From Elusimicrobiota bacterium (lineage in GTDB: Bacteria; Elusimicrobiota; Elusimicrobia; UBA1565; UBA9628), in the NCBI GenBank assembly GCA_016204945.1, contig JACQJQ010000113.1, positions 1 to 39,023 on the forward strand: a stretch of DNA of 39,023 nucleotides. Reading direction: 5' to 3'. Of the stretch, positions 17,030-28,070 are shown in pieces (position 1 is the stretch's first letter; each line of letters begins with the position of its first letter). The notes beneath the pieces are model-generated. The model saw only the letters and a program-made list of their open reading frames with translations. It was not told where the DNA came from and did no database searches. A program made the translations under genes and the position numbers.

Positions 17030-17344
17030 ATGACCCATGTCATCGTCGAAGGCTGTCTGGGCGAAGTTTACGCCGCGTGCGTCGACGTCTGCCCCGTCGA
17101 GTGCATCCACCCAGGCCAATACAAGAACGAGCCTTTCATGATCATCAACCCCGAGGTCTGCATCGACTGCGGCGTCTGCCTGCCCGAGTGCCCGATCGGC
17201 GCGATCAAGGGCTCGGCCGATGAGGACCCCGCTTGGGCGAAGATCAACGCCGACCTTGCTCCTTCCTTTAAGGACAACCCCAAGGTGACGCCGCGCGCTC
17301 CCAACGATCCTCCCCACAAGCCGACAAACAAGCTCGTCAAATAA
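17030..17344 (+). CDS. 7Fe-type ferredoxin ([3Fe-4S][4Fe-4S])
   Basis: 104 residues. Cysteines lie at 9, 17, 21, 25, 44, 47, 50 and 54: EGCLGEVYAACVDVCPVECIH and PEVCIDCGVCLPECPIGAI. The C-x7-C-x3-C-P first motif with a spare Cys four residues on matches the 7Fe ferredoxins of the Azotobacter FdI type, in which C9, C17 and C54 would hold a 3Fe cluster and C21, C44, C47 and C50 the 4Fe cluster. It is a small soluble electron carrier; its partner enzymes are not in the window. GGGAG sits 7 nt before the ATG. A rho-independent terminator begins 22 nt after the stop. Confidence 0.9.
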   Translation: MTHVIVEGCLGEVYAACVDVCPVECIHPGQYKNEPFMIINPEVCIDCGVCLPECPIGAIKGSADEDPAWAKINADLAPSFKDNPKVTPRAPNDPPHKPTNKLVK

Positions 17345-17346
17345 GA

Positions 17347-19326
17347 TTGTCCTCGAATGAAAGAGCCGAGCGGCCGCCTTGGTCGCTCGGTTTTTTCATT
17401 CTGCTGCTCTCCGTCCGAGCCCAAGCCATGAACCACACCGTCCTGCATCGCACGCCGCTCGACGCCGCCGGGGCCCGCGCCGTGGGCCTCGAGCGGGCGC
17501 CGTTGGAGGAGGGGCTGTTCCGGACCAAGGCCGCGACGGCAACCCTCGAGTCGCGCGACCTGGAGTCCCCGTTCGGCTTCGATGACCTCGTCGGCTCCCT
17601 GACCGCGGACGTGCCCGCCGGCGGGGCGGTGGAGCTCGGCGTCAAAGTCCGCCTCGAGTCCGGCTGGACCGAATGGTTCTCGCTGGGCACGCTCGACTCC
17701 GAGGGCTGGACCTCTCCCGCCGAGGCCCGCGGCGCGGACGGCGAGCCGGACGCGGCGGTCGACGTCGACACGCTCAAGCTCCGCGGGAAAGCCTCCGCGT
17801 TCCGCTACCGCGTCAGGTTCAAAGCGGGCAGGAAGGCCGTGCGCCTGCGCTCGGTCGCGATCGCCGTTTCCGACGACGAGGCCCCGAGCGCGCCGCCCGC
17901 GTTTTCAGCGGGCCCCTGGGTCCGCGACCTCGGGCTTTCGCCCCGCTCCCAGGGCGACGCGCAGGCAAAGTATAGGCACGACATCTGCTCGCCCACCTCG
18001 CTGGCGATGGTGCTCGAATACTGGGGCCGCGGAAAAGGCCTCGAGCAGGTGGCGCTCGCGGTCCGAGACCGCGGCTCCCAATTGTTCGGCAACTGGCCCG
18101 CGAACGTCGCCTACGCCGGCTCTCTGGGGCTCGAAGGCCACGTCGCCCGCCTCGAGTCCTTGGCCGACGCCGAGGCCGAGGTCGCGCAAGGACGCCCGGT
18201 GATCGTCAGCGTGACCTTCGCCGAGGGCGAGCTGCCCAACGCCCCCATCAATAAGACGCGCGGACACGTCATGGTGATCGGCGGCTTCACGCCCGCGGGC
18301 GACGTCATCGCCTATGATCCCGCGGGCAAGGGCAAGGGACAAGTGCGCCGCGTGTATCCGCGCGCGGCGTTCCACAAGGTCTGGCGCGTGCGCAAGCGCG
18401 GCCTCGCCTATGTGCTGGGCCCCACCTTCCCCCGCGCGTTCGCCGTCGGAGCGCCCGTCGCCGATCTCTGGTCGAAGCCGGTGCGCCGCGCCGGCCTCAA
18501 GCTCGACGACGAGGCGCATCGGTCCCAGCTCCTGTACGGCGAAACCGTGACCGCGCTCGAGTCCAAGGGCGGGTGGGTCCGCGTGCGCGCCGAGGAGCAG
18601 GAGAGCTTCCATCCCTCCGGCGGATGGCAGGGCTACCCGGGCTGGGTCAGAGCCGACGTCCTGGTCTCCGCCCGCCCCCCCAAAACGGGTCCGATCGTGC
18701 GCGTGCGCCAGGCCCTGCTTCAGCGCGGCGACGACCTGCTGACGCTGTCCGTCGGCACGCGCCTCGCGCGCGTTTCCGAGAACGGCGGCTCCTCGTTCGT
18801 GCGCCTGCTCGACGGCTCCATCGCCGAGATCCCGTCCGATTCCCTGTATTCGGCGCCGCCGCGGCCGACCGCCGCCTCGCGCGCCGAGATCATCCGCACC
18901 GCCGAACTTTTCCTCGGCACGAGCTACTACTGGGGCGGGCGCTCCGGCGTCCAGCCCGATCCGAAGATCGGCGTGGACTGCTCCGGCCTCGTCAGCCTGG
19001 CCTACCGCATCCACGGCCGGGACGTGCCGCGCGACTCGCATGAACAGAAGCTCCACGCCCGCGCCGTGCGGCGCGCGAGCCTGCAGAGCGGCGACTTGGT
19101 CTTCCTGACCGACGACGCGACGAGCGAGCGCGTCACCCACGTCATGATCTTCACCGGCGGAGACGGCCTCATCGAAAGCCGCAAATCGTCGGGCCGCGTG
19201 CTGCGCACGACCTTCCTCGAGCGCTTCGGCCGGCCGCTCGCCGCCGTCGAGTCCGGCGACGCGGTGACCGATCTATCCTTCGCCCGGCCCCGCCGCCGCC
19301 GCCTCTTCTTCGGATCCTATTTTTAG
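17347..19326 (+). CDS. Secreted double cysteine peptidase: C39-like + SH3-like + NlpC/P60
   Basis: 659 residues from TTG 17347, which gives a signal peptide PPWSLGFFILLLSVRAQA (11-27); the first ATG (17428) would remove it. Residues of about 85-175 look like the beta-sandwich found before some C39 peptidases. Residues 205-330 are a C39_2-type papain-like domain with C214 (HDICSPTSLAMVLEYWG), H307 (GHVMVIGG) and D324 (VIAYDP). SH3-like segments follow at about 368-440 and 448-500. The C-terminus is NlpC/P60 with C545 (GVDCSGLVSLAYR) and H598 (VTHVMIFTG). NlpC/P60 enzymes with SH3 domains cut gamma-D-Glu-DAP bonds in stem peptides. The next genes are a Mur ligase and an amidase, which fits wall turnover. 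Having two cysteine-peptidase folds in one chain is unusual. A terminator-like hairpin lies within the first codons. Confidence 0.82.
   Translation: MSSNERAERPPWSLGFFILLLSVRAQAMNHTVLHRTPLDAAGARAVGLERAPLEEGLFRTKAATATLESRDLESPFGFDDLVGSLTADVPAGGAVELGVKVRLESGWTEWFSLGTLDSEGWTSPAEARGADGEPDAAVDVDTLKLRGKASAFRYRVRFKAGRKAVRLRSVAIAVSDDEAPSAPPAFSAGPWVRDLGLSPRSQGDAQAKYRHDICSPTSLAMVLEYWGRGKGLEQVALAVRDRGSQLFGNWPANVAYAGSLGLEGHVARLESLADAEAEVAQGRPVIVSVTFAEGELPNAPINKTRGHVMVIGGFTPAGDVIAYDPAGKGKGQVRRVYPRAAFHKVWRVRKRGLAYVLGPTFPRAFAVGAPVADLWSKPVRRAGLKLDDEAHRSQLLYGETVTALESKGGWVRVRAEEQESFHPSGGWQGYPGWVRADVLVSARPPKTGPIVRVRQALLQRGDDLLTLSVGTRLARVSENGGSSFVRLLDGSIAEIPSDSLYSAPPRPTAASRAEIIRTAELFLGTSYYWGGRSGVQPDPKIGVDCSGLVSLAYRIHGRDVPRDSHEQKLHARAVRRASLQSGDLVFLTDDATSERVTHVMIFTGGDGLIESRKSSGRVLRTTFLERFGRPLAAVESGDAVTDLSFARPRRRRLFFGSYF
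17366..17396 (+). terminator. Rho-independent terminator overlapping the next gene's signal-peptide codons
   Basis: CCGAGCG (17366-17372), an 11-nt loop and CGCTCGG (17384-17390) are followed directly by six T (17391-17396). It is 22 nt after the ferredoxin stop but inside the 659-residue peptidase frame if that starts at TTG 17347. Its T tract then encodes two Phe of the signal peptide. Confidence 0.75.
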
Positions 19327-19331
19327 ACGTC

Positions 19332-20708
19332 ATGGAAAAGAAGCCCCTGATCCACTTCACCGGCATCGGGGGGGCGGGCATGAGCGCCCTGGCCCAGATT
19401 CACGCGATGGACGGGGGCCCGGCCACGGGCTCCGACCGCGACTTCGACCGCGGCCGGGGAACCGTTCTGCGCGAAAAGCTCGCGGCCCTCGGCGTGCGCC
19501 TTTTTCCCCAGGATGGGAGCGCTATAACACGCGGGACGGACCTCGCCGTGCTCTCGACCGCCATCGAGGACGCCAACCCCGAAATCGCCGCGGCCAAGTC
19601 CCTGAGCGTGCCCCTGATGCACCGCTCCGAATTCCTGGCCCGCCACGTCGAGAAGATGCGCACTATCGCGGTCGCCGGCACCAGCGGCAAGTCCACCGTC
19701 GTCGCCATGATCTTCGAAATTCTGGAGGCCGCCGGGCGCTCGCCCTCGGTCATCACGGGCGGCGGCCTCATCGCGCTGCAGCGCCGAGGCCTCGCCGGCA
19801 ACGCCTGGCGCGGAAAGTCGAACCTTCTCGTCGTCGAGGCGGATGAAAGCGACGGCTCGCTGGTCAATTACAAGCCGGCCGTGGGCGTCTTCCTCAACCT
19901 GACCAAGGATCACCTCGAGGTTTCCGCCCTGCGCGATATCTTCCTCAAGTTCAGGAGCAACGCGGCGACAGCGCTCGTGAACGCCGACGACCCCGCGCTC
20001 GCGGATCTCCGCGCCGATTCGACCTTCGGCTTGGAGTCCGGCTCGGCGCGCGCGGAAGGCCTCGAGCTGAGCCCGGCCGGCTCGACGTTCCGAGTCAAGA
20101 ACGTCGCGTTCGAGCTCCCCGTTCCAGGCCGTCACAACGCCGCCAACGCCGTGGCCGCCGTCGCGGCGTGCCTCAACGAGGGCGTCGGCCTCCAGGACTG
20201 CCGCCGGGCGTTGGCCGCCTTCCAGGGAGTCGCGCGCCGCTTTCAGAGCCTCGGAACGGCGCGCGGGGTGGAGGTCGTCGATGATTTCGCCCACAACCCG
20301 GCCAAGATCGAAGCGACCTTGACCGCGGCCCGCCTGCGCGCCGGCCGGATCCTGGCCGTCTACCAGCCTCACGGCTTCGCGCCGACTCGCCACCTCAAAA
20401 ACGAGCTGATCGCGGCCTTCGCCGAGGGCCTGCGCCCCGATGATCGGCTCTGGCTTCCGGACATCTACTACGTCGGCGGCACCGCCGATAAGGACATCTC
20501 ATCGGAAGACGTGGTCAAGCCCCTGCGCGCCCGAGGCCTGAACGCCTTTCACGTCGCGGACCGCGCCGCGATCGTTCCCCTCATAGCGGCCGAGGCGCGC
20601 GCGGGCGACTTGGTCCTGGTGATGGGCGCGCGCGATCCCTCCCTGTCGGACTTCGCCCGCGCCGTCTTGGCGGCCCTAAAAATGGAGCGACTCGGCTCCG
20701 CCGTCTAG
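19332..20708 (+). CDS. Mur ligase of the MurC/Mpl type
   Basis: 458 residues, usual MurC/Mpl length. Residues 8-20 (HFTGIGGAGMSAL) form the UDP-MurNAc-binding N-terminal motif. The ATP loop is GTSGKST (116-122) instead of the usual GTHGKTT. EADESDGSL (169-177) is a MurC/Mpl signature, and VVDDFAHNPAKIEATL (316-330) replaces the common DDYGHHPTEI, with Asn for the second His. The enzyme should attach L-Ala (MurC) or recycled L-Ala-gamma-D-Glu-DAP tripeptide (Mpl) to UDP-MurNAc in the cytoplasm. The neighbours, an NlpC/P60 peptidase before and an amidase after, favour recycling, but an essential MurC role cannot be excluded. The ATG lies 5 nt after the preceding stop. Confidence 0.82.
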   Translation: MEKKPLIHFTGIGGAGMSALAQIHAMDGGPATGSDRDFDRGRGTVLREKLAALGVRLFPQDGSAITRGTDLAVLSTAIEDANPEIAAAKSLSVPLMHRSEFLARHVEKMRTIAVAGTSGKSTVVAMIFEILEAAGRSPSVITGGGLIALQRRGLAGNAWRGKSNLLVVEADESDGSLVNYKPAVGVFLNLTKDHLEVSALRDIFLKFRSNAATALVNADDPALADLRADSTFGLESGSARAEGLELSPAGSTFRVKNVAFELPVPGRHNAANAVAAVAACLNEGVGLQDCRRALAAFQGVARRFQSLGTARGVEVVDDFAHNPAKIEATLTAARLRAGRILAVYQPHGFAPTRHLKNELIAAFAEGLRPDDRLWLPDIYYVGGTADKDISSEDVVKPLRARGLNAFHVADRAAIVPLIAAEARAGDLVLVMGARDPSLSDFARAVLAALKMERLGSAV

Positions 20709-20730: not shown

Positions 20731-22530
20731 ATGAAGCGAGCGTTCGCGGCCGCGTTGTTCCTGGCCTTGTCCCTCCCCGCCGCCGCCCGTCCCAAACAAG
20801 CGCCCGCCAAGGACGCGCCAAGGGCCGCGCCTCCCCTCCATCCGACGCGCTCGACCGAGCCGATCGTCTTCGTCTGGCCGCCCGAGAACATGCCGCTCGC
20901 GGCCGAAGGGGAATTCATCTTCGGCTCCGTCGCCGTCGCGACCGCCGGCTTCGTCATCAACGGGACCAGCGTCGCGGTCCACCCCGACGGCGGCTTCATC
21001 GCGTGGCTGCCGATCGCCCCCGGCACGTTCACATTTCGGGGCGAGTTGGCCCTGTCAGCGGGAACGGCGACGGCCGAGCGCCGCATCCTCGTGCCCTTGC
21101 CCCCGGCGCCCTTGCCGGGCAAACTGGCCGTCGATTCTGCCTCTCTCTTCCCCAAATCCGACCTCGAACTGCGCGGCGGCGACCTCTTGACGGTCCGCAT
21201 GAAAGGCACGCCGGGAAAGGACGCGCGCTTCCGCGTCGGCAAGGGCGTCTGGCGGCCGATGCGCGCCGCGAACGCGGCGCTCGGAATCTACGAGGGGACG
21301 GCTCTCATCGCGCCCGGCGCGGACTTCGAGCCGAGCTTCGTCGAATACGAGCTCGGCCGGGGCTGGTCCTCGGTGAAGGCCAAGGGAACGGCGCGCGTGT
21401 CCGCCTCCGCGAGCCCCCCCGCGGTCGCCGCGGTGAAAACGAGCACGTCCGGCTTCGCCAACATAAAGACCGGGCCCACGAACGGTTTTTTGATGTTCCC
21501 GCTCCCAGGCACCCGGCTTCCGGTGACGGGCCGCGACGGCGGCCTCCTGCGCGTGCGCCTGTCCGACTCCCTGTCGGGCTGGATCGAGGCGAAGGACGTC
21601 GCGGTCGCGGCCGCGGCTCCCCGCGCCGTGACGGGCACGATCGCGGCGAGCAAGACCGATCTCGGCGCGCTGGTGAAGATCGGCCTCTCGGAAAAGGCCG
21701 CCTTCGACGTGGAGGCCTCGGCCGGGCTCGACGCGCTGACGGTGCGCCTCTACAACGCGACCGGGCACACGAACTGGATGCTCAACGACGCGCCCGAATT
21801 CGTCCGGGAGATCCGCTGGCGCCAGGAATCGACCGACGTCGTGGCCGTGACCATCCTTCTTAAGACGCACGAGCCGCTATGGGGATGGTGGCCGTCCTAC
21901 GAGGGGAACGCCCTGCTCCTGGAGCTTCGCCGCGCTCCTAAAATATCGACGAAGAATCCGCTCTCGGGCATCAAGGTCATGCTCGATCCCGGACACATGC
22001 CGTCGATGCCCAGCGCGACGGGCCCTCTCGGCACCAGCGAGATGGACGCCAACTACGCCATCGCCCTGGCGGCGAAGGCCCGCCTCGAGCGCGCGGGCGC
22101 CGCCGTTCTGATGACGCGCGACGGTCCCCTGCACGAGGTCTCGCTCGCGGAAAGACCGCGGCAAGCCGTCGAGCGCGGCGCCGACCTCTTCGTGAGCCTG
22201 CACAACAACGCGCTGCCCGACGGCGAAAATCCGTTCGCCAAGCCGCGAGGCTTCACCGTCTTCTATTACCACCCGCAAAGCCTCGAGCTCGGCCGCGCCG
22301 TGCACGAGGCCTATCGCGGGCGCATCAAGCTCGCCGACGAGGGGCTGCGCTGGGGCAATCTGCTCGTCGCCCGCCAAAGCGCCATGCCGGCGATCCTCGT
22401 GGAGAACGCCTACATGATCTTTCCCGACCAGGAAGCGCTTCTTAATTCCGCGTTGTTCCGCGACGAGCTCGCCAAGGCGCTCGTCGAGGGCCTCGAAAAA
22501 TTCCTGCGCTCGGCCCGGAGAAAACCTTGA
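20731..22530 (+). CDS. N-acetylmuramoyl-L-alanine amidase (Amidase_3) with long N-terminal region
   Basis: 599 residues. A signal peptide (1-19) precedes about 390 residues without recognised catalytic motifs: beta-rich segments resembling Ig- or SH3-like domains and an AMIN-like stretch (about 320-400, including LTVRLYNATGHTNW). The C-terminal Amidase_3 domain (415-595) has all zinc and catalytic residues: H422 (VMLDPGHM), E437 (TSEMDANYAIALA), H491 (VSLHNNA) and E558 (ILVENAYM). It cleaves the MurNAc-L-Ala amide bond in periplasmic peptidoglycan, releasing stem peptides. It is third in a wall-turnover block after the double peptidase and the Mur ligase. A TAGGAT sequence upstream may serve as a ribosome binding site. 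Confidence 0.9.
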   Translation: MKRAFAAALFLALSLPAAARPKQAPAKDAPRAAPPLHPTRSTEPIVFVWPPENMPLAAEGEFIFGSVAVATAGFVINGTSVAVHPDGGFIAWLPIAPGTFTFRGELALSAGTATAERRILVPLPPAPLPGKLAVDSASLFPKSDLELRGGDLLTVRMKGTPGKDARFRVGKGVWRPMRAANAALGIYEGTALIAPGADFEPSFVEYELGRGWSSVKAKGTARVSASASPPAVAAVKTSTSGFANIKTGPTNGFLMFPLPGTRLPVTGRDGGLLRVRLSDSLSGWIEAKDVAVAAAAPRAVTGTIAASKTDLGALVKIGLSEKAAFDVEASAGLDALTVRLYNATGHTNWMLNDAPEFVREIRWRQESTDVVAVTILLKTHEPLWGWWPSYEGNALLLELRRAPKISTKNPLSGIKVMLDPGHMPSMPSATGPLGTSEMDANYAIALAAKARLERAGAAVLMTRDGPLHEVSLAERPRQAVERGADLFVSLHNNALPDGENPFAKPRGFTVFYYHPQSLELGRAVHEAYRGRIKLADEGLRWGNLLVARQSAMPAILVENAYMIFPDQEALLNSALFRDELAKALVEGLEKFLRSARRKP

Positions 22531-25704: not shown

Positions 25705-26349
25705 TTAATCGGAATCCACGCCCCGCTGCGGGCAGTCGGGGCGCAGGGTACACGCGCCGCACGCGGGATTGCGCGCCTTGCAGACGCGCCGGCCGTGCCA
25801 GATCACCGCGTGGGACCAGAACACCCAGTCCTCGCGCGGCACGACGGCGGCCAGGTCGCGCTCCACCTTGACCGGGTCCTCCTCGTCGCTGAGGCCGAAG
25901 CGGTAGGCAAGGCGCTTCATGTGCGTGTCCACGACCACGCCCTCGGGCTTTCCGTAGATCTCGCCCAGGACCACGTTGGCGGTCTTGCGCGCGACGCCGC
26001 GTAAAGCGAGAAGCCCCTCCATCGTGTCCGGGATTCTACCGCCATGGAGGTCGCGCACGGCCTTTGCGGTTTCAATGATCGCCTTCGCCTTCATCCGGTA
26101 GAAGCCGCACGAGCGCACGATTCCCTCGAGCTCGGCCGGCGCCGCTTTCGCGTAGTCGTCCAAGGTCCTGTAGCGCTTGAATAAAGTCCTCGTCGTCGCG
26201 TTGACGCGCACGTCGGTGCACTGCGCCGACAGGATCACGGCGAAGAGAAGCTCGTGCGGCGAGGAATAATCGAGCTCGCAACGCGCGTCGGGATAAAGCC
26301 GACGCAGGCCCCTGAGGAGTTTTGCCGCGCGCTCGGCCTTGACGCTCAC
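25705..26349 (-). CDS. nth: Endonuclease III (DNA glycosylase/AP lyase)
   Basis: 214 residues, normal length. The helix-hairpin-helix is LLALRGVARKTANVVLG with catalytic K122. D141 in VVVDTHMKR is the second catalytic residue. C190, C197, C200 and C206 (VCKARNPACGACTLRPDCP) bind the [4Fe-4S] cluster. It removes oxidised pyrimidines and nicks the abasic site in base excision repair. Its start overlaps the TGA of the binding-protein gene by 4 bases (26346-26349), so it is expressed from that gene's message although the functions are unrelated. Confidence 0.96.
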   Translation of the reverse strand: MSVKAERAAKLLRGLRRLYPDARCELDYSSPHELLFAVILSAQCTDVRVNATTRTLFKRYRTLDDYAKAAPAELEGIVRSCGFYRMKAKAIIETAKAVRDLHGGRIPDTMEGLLALRGVARKTANVVLGEIYGKPEGVVVDTHMKRLAYRFGLSDEEDPVKVERDLAAVVPREDWVFWSHAVIWHGRRVCKARNPACGACTLRPDCPQRGVDSD

Positions 26350-28070
26350 CGCTTCTCGATCGGGTAGTAGTAGGTCCCGAGATTGACCGGGTTGTCGACG
26401 AAGCCTTTCACCCAGGTCCGCATGCCGTAGACGCCGGCGGGATGCACGGTAAAGATCGCGGGGGCGTCTTCATAGCCTTTCACTAAAATCTTTTTATACA
26501 GCGCCGCGCGCTTGACGGGCGACGGCTCGACGGCCGCCTTTTCGATCAAAGCATCCATTTCCAAGTTCACATAGCCCTGAGCCGAGGGATAACGCCCGGC
26601 GGAATGGTAAAAAGCGTAAATAAAATTATGCGCGTCGGGATAGTCCGCGATCCAACCCCGCGCGAACAACGGCATCAGCCTCCTCTGGGCCTTATCAAGG
26701 AAGCTCGCCCAATCCACGCCGCGCAGGTCCACGCGGAACCGCGGATTCAGCTTCTCGACGTTCTTCTTCAGGATCTGCGCCGCCGCCTCCCGGTTCTCGC
26801 TGCCGGTGTTGTAGGTGAGCGTGAAGCGAAAGCCCTTCTCCCACGCCCGCCCGCCCCACGCCCGGCGCAGGTGCGCCTCCGCCTTCTTGAGGTCATGGAC
26901 GTAGCGCGGCTGATGAGCGTCGTGGCCGGGAACGTTCGGAGGGATCGGACCGAGCGCGCGCGCCGCGGTTCCCTTGAAGGTGTCGCGCAGGATCGCCTCG
27001 TAGTCGAAGGCGGAGGAAAATCCCCTCCGGACGTCGAGGTCGGCGAAGAAATCGGGCGGGATGCCCTCTCCGTCGAGCTTGCCCGAGCCGATGTCGGGGT
27101 TGGCGACGGGATTGATCTTGACCGTGAAGAACAGCGCGGGATCCGTCTGCAGGCGGCGCAGGCCGTCCACCAAGGCCACGCCGGGAATGCCCGCGAGCTG
27201 GGACGCGTAGGGGCGCGGCGTCTCGATCAAGTCCGCGTCGCCGGCCTGCAGCATCAGCTTGCGGGTGTTGAGCTCGGGAACCGCCTTGACCAATACCTGC
27301 CTCAACTTCGCCGGGCCCCGGAAGTACGCGTCGTGGCGCGACAGCAAGACGTAGCGGGCGGTCCTGTCCCAACGGGCAAGCTTGAAGGGACCGGCGCCGT
27401 TCATTTTCTGATAGAGGTAGGACTTCTCTTTGGCCGGGTCATTGAAGGCCTTCCACGTCCCGGGCGATCCGTCCCATTCGCCGTGCGCGACGGCCCACGC
27501 CTTCGGAACGACGTACGACCACCGCGCCATGATCCCGAGAAACGGCCCGAAGGGGCGCGGCAGCGAGATCACCACGTCGTTTCCGTCCACGCGCACGGCT
27601 TTCTCCAGCGCGGCGAAGTCGAGAGTGATCGTTCCGGAGGAATCGCGCGTGGAAGGAACGCCGGCGATGGGTTCCAGCAGCAGGGCCGAGGGCCCTCCGG
27701 AACGATCCGTGATCATGAAGCGGAGCAGGGAATAGCGCACGTCCTCCGGCGTCACCTCGCTCCCATCGTGAAATTTGACGCCTTTGCGGATCGGGAAGCG
27801 ATACACGCGTCCGTCCGGAGAGATCAGCTTATTTTTTAAGGAAGGAACTCTCCGCGCGATGCGCGGCTCGTAGTGGGACAGCGACGAGCCCTCGAAAGCG
27901 ATGAGCGTCTCGTAGACGTTCTGGATCACAGACTGGCTCGCCCCGTCGTAGGGAAAGACGGGGTCGAGGCTGCCGACCTCCCCGATCTCGAGATTCGTGA
28001 AGGTATCGGGATTCTTGACGGTCTCGGCGGCGGACGCGACGGCGGACGCGAGAAGCAGGGCGGTGATCAT
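26346..28070 (-). CDS. ABC transporter substrate-binding protein (SBP_bac_5, oligopeptide/dipeptide type)
   Basis: 574 residues. A short signal peptide (MITALLLASAVASA) precedes a family 5 solute-binding protein: GEVGSLDPVFPYDGAS, YRFPIRKGVKFHDGSEVTPE, MNGAGPFKLARWDR, RRGFSSAFDYEAILRD and ARGWIADYPDAHNFIYAF are all conserved positions. It would bind peptides or similar solutes in the periplasm. No lipobox Cys is seen, so it is soluble rather than lipid-anchored. No permease or ATPase genes adjoin it, so the transporter must be elsewhere or the protein works with another system. The ATG at 28070 lies 6 nt after the -10 of a good promoter, suggesting a leaderless mRNA. Confidence 0.9.
   Translation of the reverse strand: MITALLLASAVASAAETVKNPDTFTNLEIGEVGSLDPVFPYDGASQSVIQNVYETLIAFEGSSLSHYEPRIARRVPSLKNKLISPDGRVYRFPIRKGVKFHDGSEVTPEDVRYSLLRFMITDRSGGPSALLLEPIAGVPSTRDSSGTITLDFAALEKAVRVDGNDVVISLPRPFGPFLGIMARWSYVVPKAWAVAHGEWDGSPGTWKAFNDPAKEKSYLYQKMNGAGPFKLARWDRTARYVLLSRHDAYFRGPAKLRQVLVKAVPELNTRKLMLQAGDADLIETPRPYASQLAGIPGVALVDGLRRLQTDPALFFTVKINPVANPDIGSGKLDGEGIPPDFFADLDVRRGFSSAFDYEAILRDTFKGTAARALGPIPPNVPGHDAHQPRYVHDLKKAEAHLRRAWGGRAWEKGFRFTLTYNTGSENREAAAQILKKNVEKLNPRFRVDLRGVDWASFLDKAQRRLMPLFARGWIADYPDAHNFIYAFYHSAGRYPSAQGYVNLEMDALIEKAAVEPSPVKRAALYKKILVKGYEDAPAIFTVHPAGVYGMRTWVKGFVDNPVNLGTYYYPIEKR

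Follow-up and report, generated by a model that had tools for sequence, protein, structure and literature searches.

The closest characterised relatives of the protein described here are the YkfC/dipeptidyl-peptidase VI (DPP-VI) enzymes, in which the first SH3b domain (SH3b1) helps to form the active site and restricts it to free L-Ala-γ-D-Glu-diamino-acid peptides. The subfamily that acts on a free N-terminal L-Ala is defined by Asp at position 256 and by Tyr at position 118 in SH3b1 (Xu et al., PMC2954226). YkfC of Chlamydia trachomatis (CT127) cleaves the bond between γ-D-Glu and meso-diaminopimelic acid (mDAP) in murein tripeptide recycling, and high-molecular-weight peptidoglycan is not a substrate of a YkfC that has been characterised (PMC9928106). 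The second relevant family, C39_2, was described in a recent survey as single-domain and transporter-associated (PMC10318531). It is widespread and, as far as we found in the literature, without an established substrate. Here, we analyse a gene at positions 17347 to 19326 of a 39,023-nucleotide contig from an Elusimicrobiota bacterium (JACQJQ010000113.1, the whole of which is called the window below), which joins both families in a single chain. We consider it fairly probable that its product is an exported bifunctional peptidase of murein-peptide salvage.

Domain architecture and catalytic residues

One uninterrupted frame of 659 codons runs on the forward strand from the TTG at 17347 through the stop codon ending at 19326. 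It encodes, in this order, a probable signal peptide, a β-sandwich, a C39_2 papain fold, SH3b1, SH3b2 and an NlpC/P60 domain:

17347–19326, + strand: fused C39_2–YkfC peptidase gene, 659 residues, TTG start, next in-frame ATG at 17428
17347–17427, + strand: probable signal peptide, residues 1–27 (...FFILLLSVRAQA, followed by MNHT), assigned by eye
17515–17877, + strand: N-terminal β-sandwich, residues about 57–177, MAM/jelly-roll-like (AlphaFold2 models, weak Foldseek matches)
17914–18417, + strand: Peptidase_C39_2 papain-like domain, residues about 190–357, with Q202, C214, H307 and D324 (Pfam, alignment, model, Foldseek)
18457–18660, + strand: SH3b1 of the YkfC module, residues about 371–438, with Y430 equivalent to Tyr118 of Bacillus cereus YkfC (BcYkfC) (Pfam, PDB sequence match, alignment, model, Foldseek)
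18694–18852, + strand: SH3b2 of the YkfC module, residues about 450–502 (PDB sequence match, model, Foldseek)
18874–19323, + strand: NlpC/P60 domain, residues about 510–659, with C545, D563 (equivalent to BcYkfC Asp256), H598 and E610 (Pfam, PDB sequence match, alignment, Foldseek)

Three Pfam families match above their cut-offs, namely Peptidase_C39_2 (PF13529) at residues 206–326 (E 7.5e-20, 72.4 bits, cut-off 24), SH3_16 at residues 392–417 and NLPC_P60 at residues 524–617 (E 6.2e-16). AlphaFold2 models reach a predicted local distance difference test score (pLDDT) of 83.5 and a predicted TM-score (pTM) of 0.76 for the mature full chain, and 91.1 and 0.90 for the N-terminal half. Because Foldseek places the C-terminal half with BcYkfC (3h41; matched across all three domains, E 1.1e-17, 303 alignment columns for a target of 305 residues) and the N-terminal half with the C39 peptidase 6mpz (TMt 0.78) and, weakly, with the papain-like pseudomurein endoisopeptidase PeiR (8z4h; E 4e-5, TMt 0.50), the chain is predicted to contain two papain-type folds. 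The weak matches of the β-sandwich are meprin and immune inhibitor A.

We aligned 29 fused proteins (that of the window and 28 others) and eight C39-only relatives. Q202, C214, H307, D324, C545, H598 and E610 are conserved in all fused proteins, and the first four also in every C39-only relative (8/8). Since no fused or C39-only sequence in the alignment departs from this Q-C-H-D set, the C39 half is likely an active peptidase.

A sequence-only reading of the gene had proposed that one exported protein carries two papain-like peptidases along with two SH3-like domains and had named C214, H307, D324, C545 and H598 as catalytic. This layout is borne out by Pfam, AlphaFold2 and Foldseek, the named residues are correct, and structure prediction, suggested there as a check, gave two papain-type folds and not one. 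The β-sandwich ahead of the C39 domain had been missed. The SH3 segments, taken for spacers, are instead part of the known three-domain YkfC/DPP-VI enzyme, and the YkfC match agrees with the proposed action of the C-terminal unit on stem peptides. Both halves belong to known families and their combination is apparently undescribed, as that reading had supposed. We found no paper on a C39_2–YkfC combination or on Elusimicrobia recycling in a partial coverage of the literature, and with a limited cross-phylum search the novelty is provisional.

YkfC identity of the C-terminal half

The C-terminal ~290 residues are a complete YkfC/DPP-VI module (SH3b1–SH3b2–NlpC/P60). BcYkfC is the best PDB match both by sequence (3h41, E 3e-23, residues 392–615) and by fold. 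The two proteins share domain order, fold and the Cys-His dyad, and alignment puts Y430 at the position of Tyr118 and D563 at that of Asp256, so that the window protein has the architecture of the family together with both residues that define the free L-Ala subfamily. Every aligned sequence, whether fused or YkfC-only, has the C545–H598 dyad. This half would cleave γ-D-Glu–mDAP in free stem peptides. Further likenesses are that BcYkfC is also predicted to be exported and that unfused Elusimicrobia relatives have recycling-type gene neighbours. The window protein differs from BcYkfC in about 330 preceding residues with the β-sandwich and the C39_2 peptidase, in a Glu (E610) as third catalytic residue where YkfC has His, and in SH3b1, where Glu83-Thr84 are replaced by Arg-Ser (Leu-Ser in most relatives of family f1). 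The C. trachomatis enzyme differs in that it is predicted to be cytosolic and has no reported C39 domain. Among the Foldseek matches of the C-terminal half is also the structure of a RipA E444 mutant (4q4t).

A single old fusion in Elusimicrobia

Matches were found in 186 of the 196 sampled genomes of the class Elusimicrobia and in 236 of 341 genomes of the phylum, those beyond the class being mostly weak. Dozens of the Elusimicrobia matches are full-length in a single frame at 30–84% identity. An assembly artefact or chance fusion was rejected on these grounds; the fusion is real, old and widespread. The fused form occurs in most of families f1, f2, f3, f4, f10, f11 and f15, in two f12 genera and in one f5 genome. 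Small-genome f12 genera carry the C39 half alone, while the YkfC half stands alone in f6, f8, f9 and most of f5. Outside Elusimicrobia, the fusion was not found in a pattern-limited contig scan or a plasmid collection, and the other genomes of the phylum gave weak matches or none.

Fused proteins form a single clade in the tree of the YkfC half (support 91 by Shimodaira–Hasegawa-like approximate likelihood ratio test, SH-aLRT), and the f12 C39-only proteins form a single clade (support 99) nested among fused ones in the tree of the C39 half, in which L093 is a contig-edge truncation. The trees are quick ones, with moderate support on several deep branches. One fused clade and one nested C39-only clade are most simply explained by a single fusion, after which small-genome f12 members lost the YkfC half once, along with the signal peptide.

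Some loci deviate in frame. In L042 (7880–7960, genome G006) and likewise in L117, the stop codon of the peptidase is missing and the gene is in frame with the downstream MurC paralogue, giving an open frame of 1154 residues, which may be a sequencing error. In L046 (5991–7954, a complete-genome record), L048 and L024, the fused gene is split into two or more frames by frameshift or assembly error.

Peptide-uptake and recycling genes

The informative neighbours lie in the relatives and comprise genes for SBP_bac_5, L-Ala-D/L-Glu epimerase and DapF. The following genes are concerned:

26346–28070, − strand, window: SBP_bac_5 peptide-binding protein, sharing about 50–59% identity with the SBP_bac_5 proteins encoded immediately next to C39 or fused genes of other families
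L071 6046–7314, L073 3114–4418 and L104 1933–3297: M15–YkuD gene (by Pfam in L071 and L073, by similarity in L104)

An SBP_bac_5 gene directly follows the C39-only gene in 18/18 sampled f12 loci and lies directly beside seven fused genes (L060, L061, L065, L077, L091, L096 and L098). In genome G064, the one beside the C39 half is the sole SBP_bac_5 gene found. L061 and L065 have a DapF gene upstream of the fused one. Unfused YkfC genes of f6, f8 and f9 adjoin L-Ala-D/L-Glu epimerase and/or DUF819 genes, and those of f5 adjoin a D-Ala-D-Ala dipeptidase (M15)–YkuD gene, a neighbour shared by the fused f5 gene L104. The M15–YkuD protein beside these f5 YkfC-type genes combines Peptidase_M15 and a YkuD L,D-transpeptidase domain in one chain. 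The window's own genome encodes an epimerase homologue that is closest to dipeptide epimerases, an Opp ATPase and six SBP_bac_5 matches.

Proposed function and alternatives

From these observations, we infer export, substrates and the order of steps as follows. The fused protein would be exported to the periplasm, as its N-terminal sequence suggests by eye, and the YkfC half would cut γ-D-Glu–mDAP in free stem peptides. An Opp/Dpp-type transporter could then import the products with the help of an SBP_bac_5 protein, for example the one at 26346–28070, and a YkfB-type L-Ala-D/L-Glu epimerase whose gene lies elsewhere in the genome would epimerise the L-Ala-γ-D-Glu dipeptide inside. The β-sandwich–C39_2 half, as an active cysteine peptidase, would add a second cut to the same peptide supply, and may either trim wall-bound or protein-derived peptides or cut a bond beyond the reach of the YkfC half. 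A bolder version seems to us quite unlikely, namely that the C39 half is a murein-recycling peptidase not recognised before, whose cut, for instance at an inter-peptide or protein–murein link, would complement that of YkfC. One exported enzyme would then perform two successive steps of stem-peptide salvage and pass what it releases on to a dedicated peptide-binding protein. That this C39_2 branch was joined once, long ago, to a narrow-specificity enzyme of known type serves as a Rosetta-stone clue to its place in peptide salvage. A testable function follows for the fused Elusimicrobia proteins and for the C39-only proteins beside a peptide-binding gene in small-genome members of one family.

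Several points weigh against the salvage reading. A search of 14 genomes gave no LdcA-type (S66) carboxypeptidase. The position of Asp256 is Asn in fused proteins of f4, f10, f12 and f15 and in two f1 sequences (L018 and L019), and the g11 sequences L026 and L028 are without both signature residues (Asp256 to Asn, Tyr118 to Cys). Because of these replacements, specificity may differ across the class. The Glu at the third catalytic position belongs here as well. The small-genome f12 C39-only proteins have no evident signal peptide, which points to a cytosolic version; most SBP_bac_5 genes beside them have a lipobox-like N-terminus. Haloarchaea have no murein and still carry a C39 half of this type, so this C39 branch as a whole is not murein-specific.

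An alternative that we regard as possible but rather unlikely is that the protein is a general peptide scavenger. The C39 half would then be an ordinary exported protease of proteins or peptides, and its fusion to YkfC would serve only to have peptides from both protein and murein broken down at the uptake system. The N-terminal half, β-sandwich and peptidase, is 31–42% identical to stand-alone proteins of Actinomycetota and one planctomycete, and in the plasmid collection, Deinococcus and haloarchaeal sequences match it with identities of up to 39.5%. These stand-alone "peptidase C39 family proteins" (PF13529 with the same N-terminal region) keep Q-C-H-D in the actinobacterial and planctomycete sequences aligned, and differ in having no NlpC/P60 fusion in the records examined; the single-domain state usual for C39_2 is not found in the window protein, with its added YkfC module. 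Scavenging would also suit the transporter association described for C39_2 and the C39 half that stays beside SBP_bac_5 after loss of the YkfC half, as in G064. It leaves unexplained the fusion to a substrate-restricted YkfC module and the DapF, amidase and M15 neighbours.

Bacteriocin processing was rejected as a role of the C39 half. The peptidases concerned (PF03412; PCAT, 6mpz) share the papain-like fold, whereas the window chain carries no ABC (ATP-binding cassette) transporter domain and has no PF03412 match at E ≤ 1 in the Pfam search.

We think it improbable that the protein is an autolysin, with both halves cutting intact peptidoglycan in growth or division and the SH3b domains anchoring it to the wall. 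Autolysins commonly contain NlpC/P60 and SH3b domains, the fused gene has an Amidase_3 gene downstream, the C39 half has its weak Foldseek link to PeiR, and the Asn that replaces D563 in several families would make a free amine less strictly required. Yet the window protein retains both residues of the free L-Ala subfamily, a characterised YkfC is inactive on high-molecular-weight peptidoglycan, and the neighbours in relatives are uptake and recycling genes. The suggestion of the sequence-only reading that one half regulates the other, for instance with the C39 half as a regulatory or maturation domain, fits the covalent linkage of both halves across the class but deserves hardly any credence and found no support, as both catalytic sets are conserved in 29/29 fused proteins and each half occurs alone in other lineages.

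Neighbouring genes and N-terminus

The genes flanking the fused gene in the window are:

17030–17344, + strand: FdxA-like ferredoxin, an upstream neighbour conserved in f1, f2, f3 and f10
19332–20708, + strand: MurC paralogue (308.8 bits on TIGR01082, cut-off 335.1)
20731–22530, + strand: N-acetylmuramoyl-L-alanine amidase (Amidase_3), a conserved downstream neighbour in much of f1

The Mur ligase and the amidase had both been pointed out as neighbours in the sequence-only reading. Of these, the amidase is the more conserved. The ligase is a MurC paralogue that adjoins the fused gene, between the peptidase and amidase genes, in only part of the genus; it is class-wide and located elsewhere in other genomes, and a canonical murC lies at a separate site in the same genome (G000:C149). 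On the Mpl model TIGR01081, it scores 130.5 bits against a cut-off of 388.7 and is nearer to MurC. For these reasons, the Mur ligase was rejected as a functional partner. Two MurC-type ligases occur in many Elusimicrobia (most sampled f1, f2, f3 and f15 genomes), and small-genome f12 genera have only the paralogue type at E ≤ 1e-30.

The start codon may be the TTG at 17347 or another, for example the ATG at 17428. In several families, most fused homologues have comparable hydrophobic stretches ahead of the conserved region, and because of this a cytosolic start at ATG 17428 may be disfavoured; three g11 loci (L026, L028 and L029) have no such stretch in the frame read. The signal-peptide codons overlap a further element:

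17355–17401, + strand: perfect 21-bp inverted repeat with an A/T tract, a terminator-like hairpin of the upstream ferredoxin gene

A simple terminator scan did not list this hairpin. It folds with −42.1 kcal/mol (z −5.8) and is common to most sister species of the genus.
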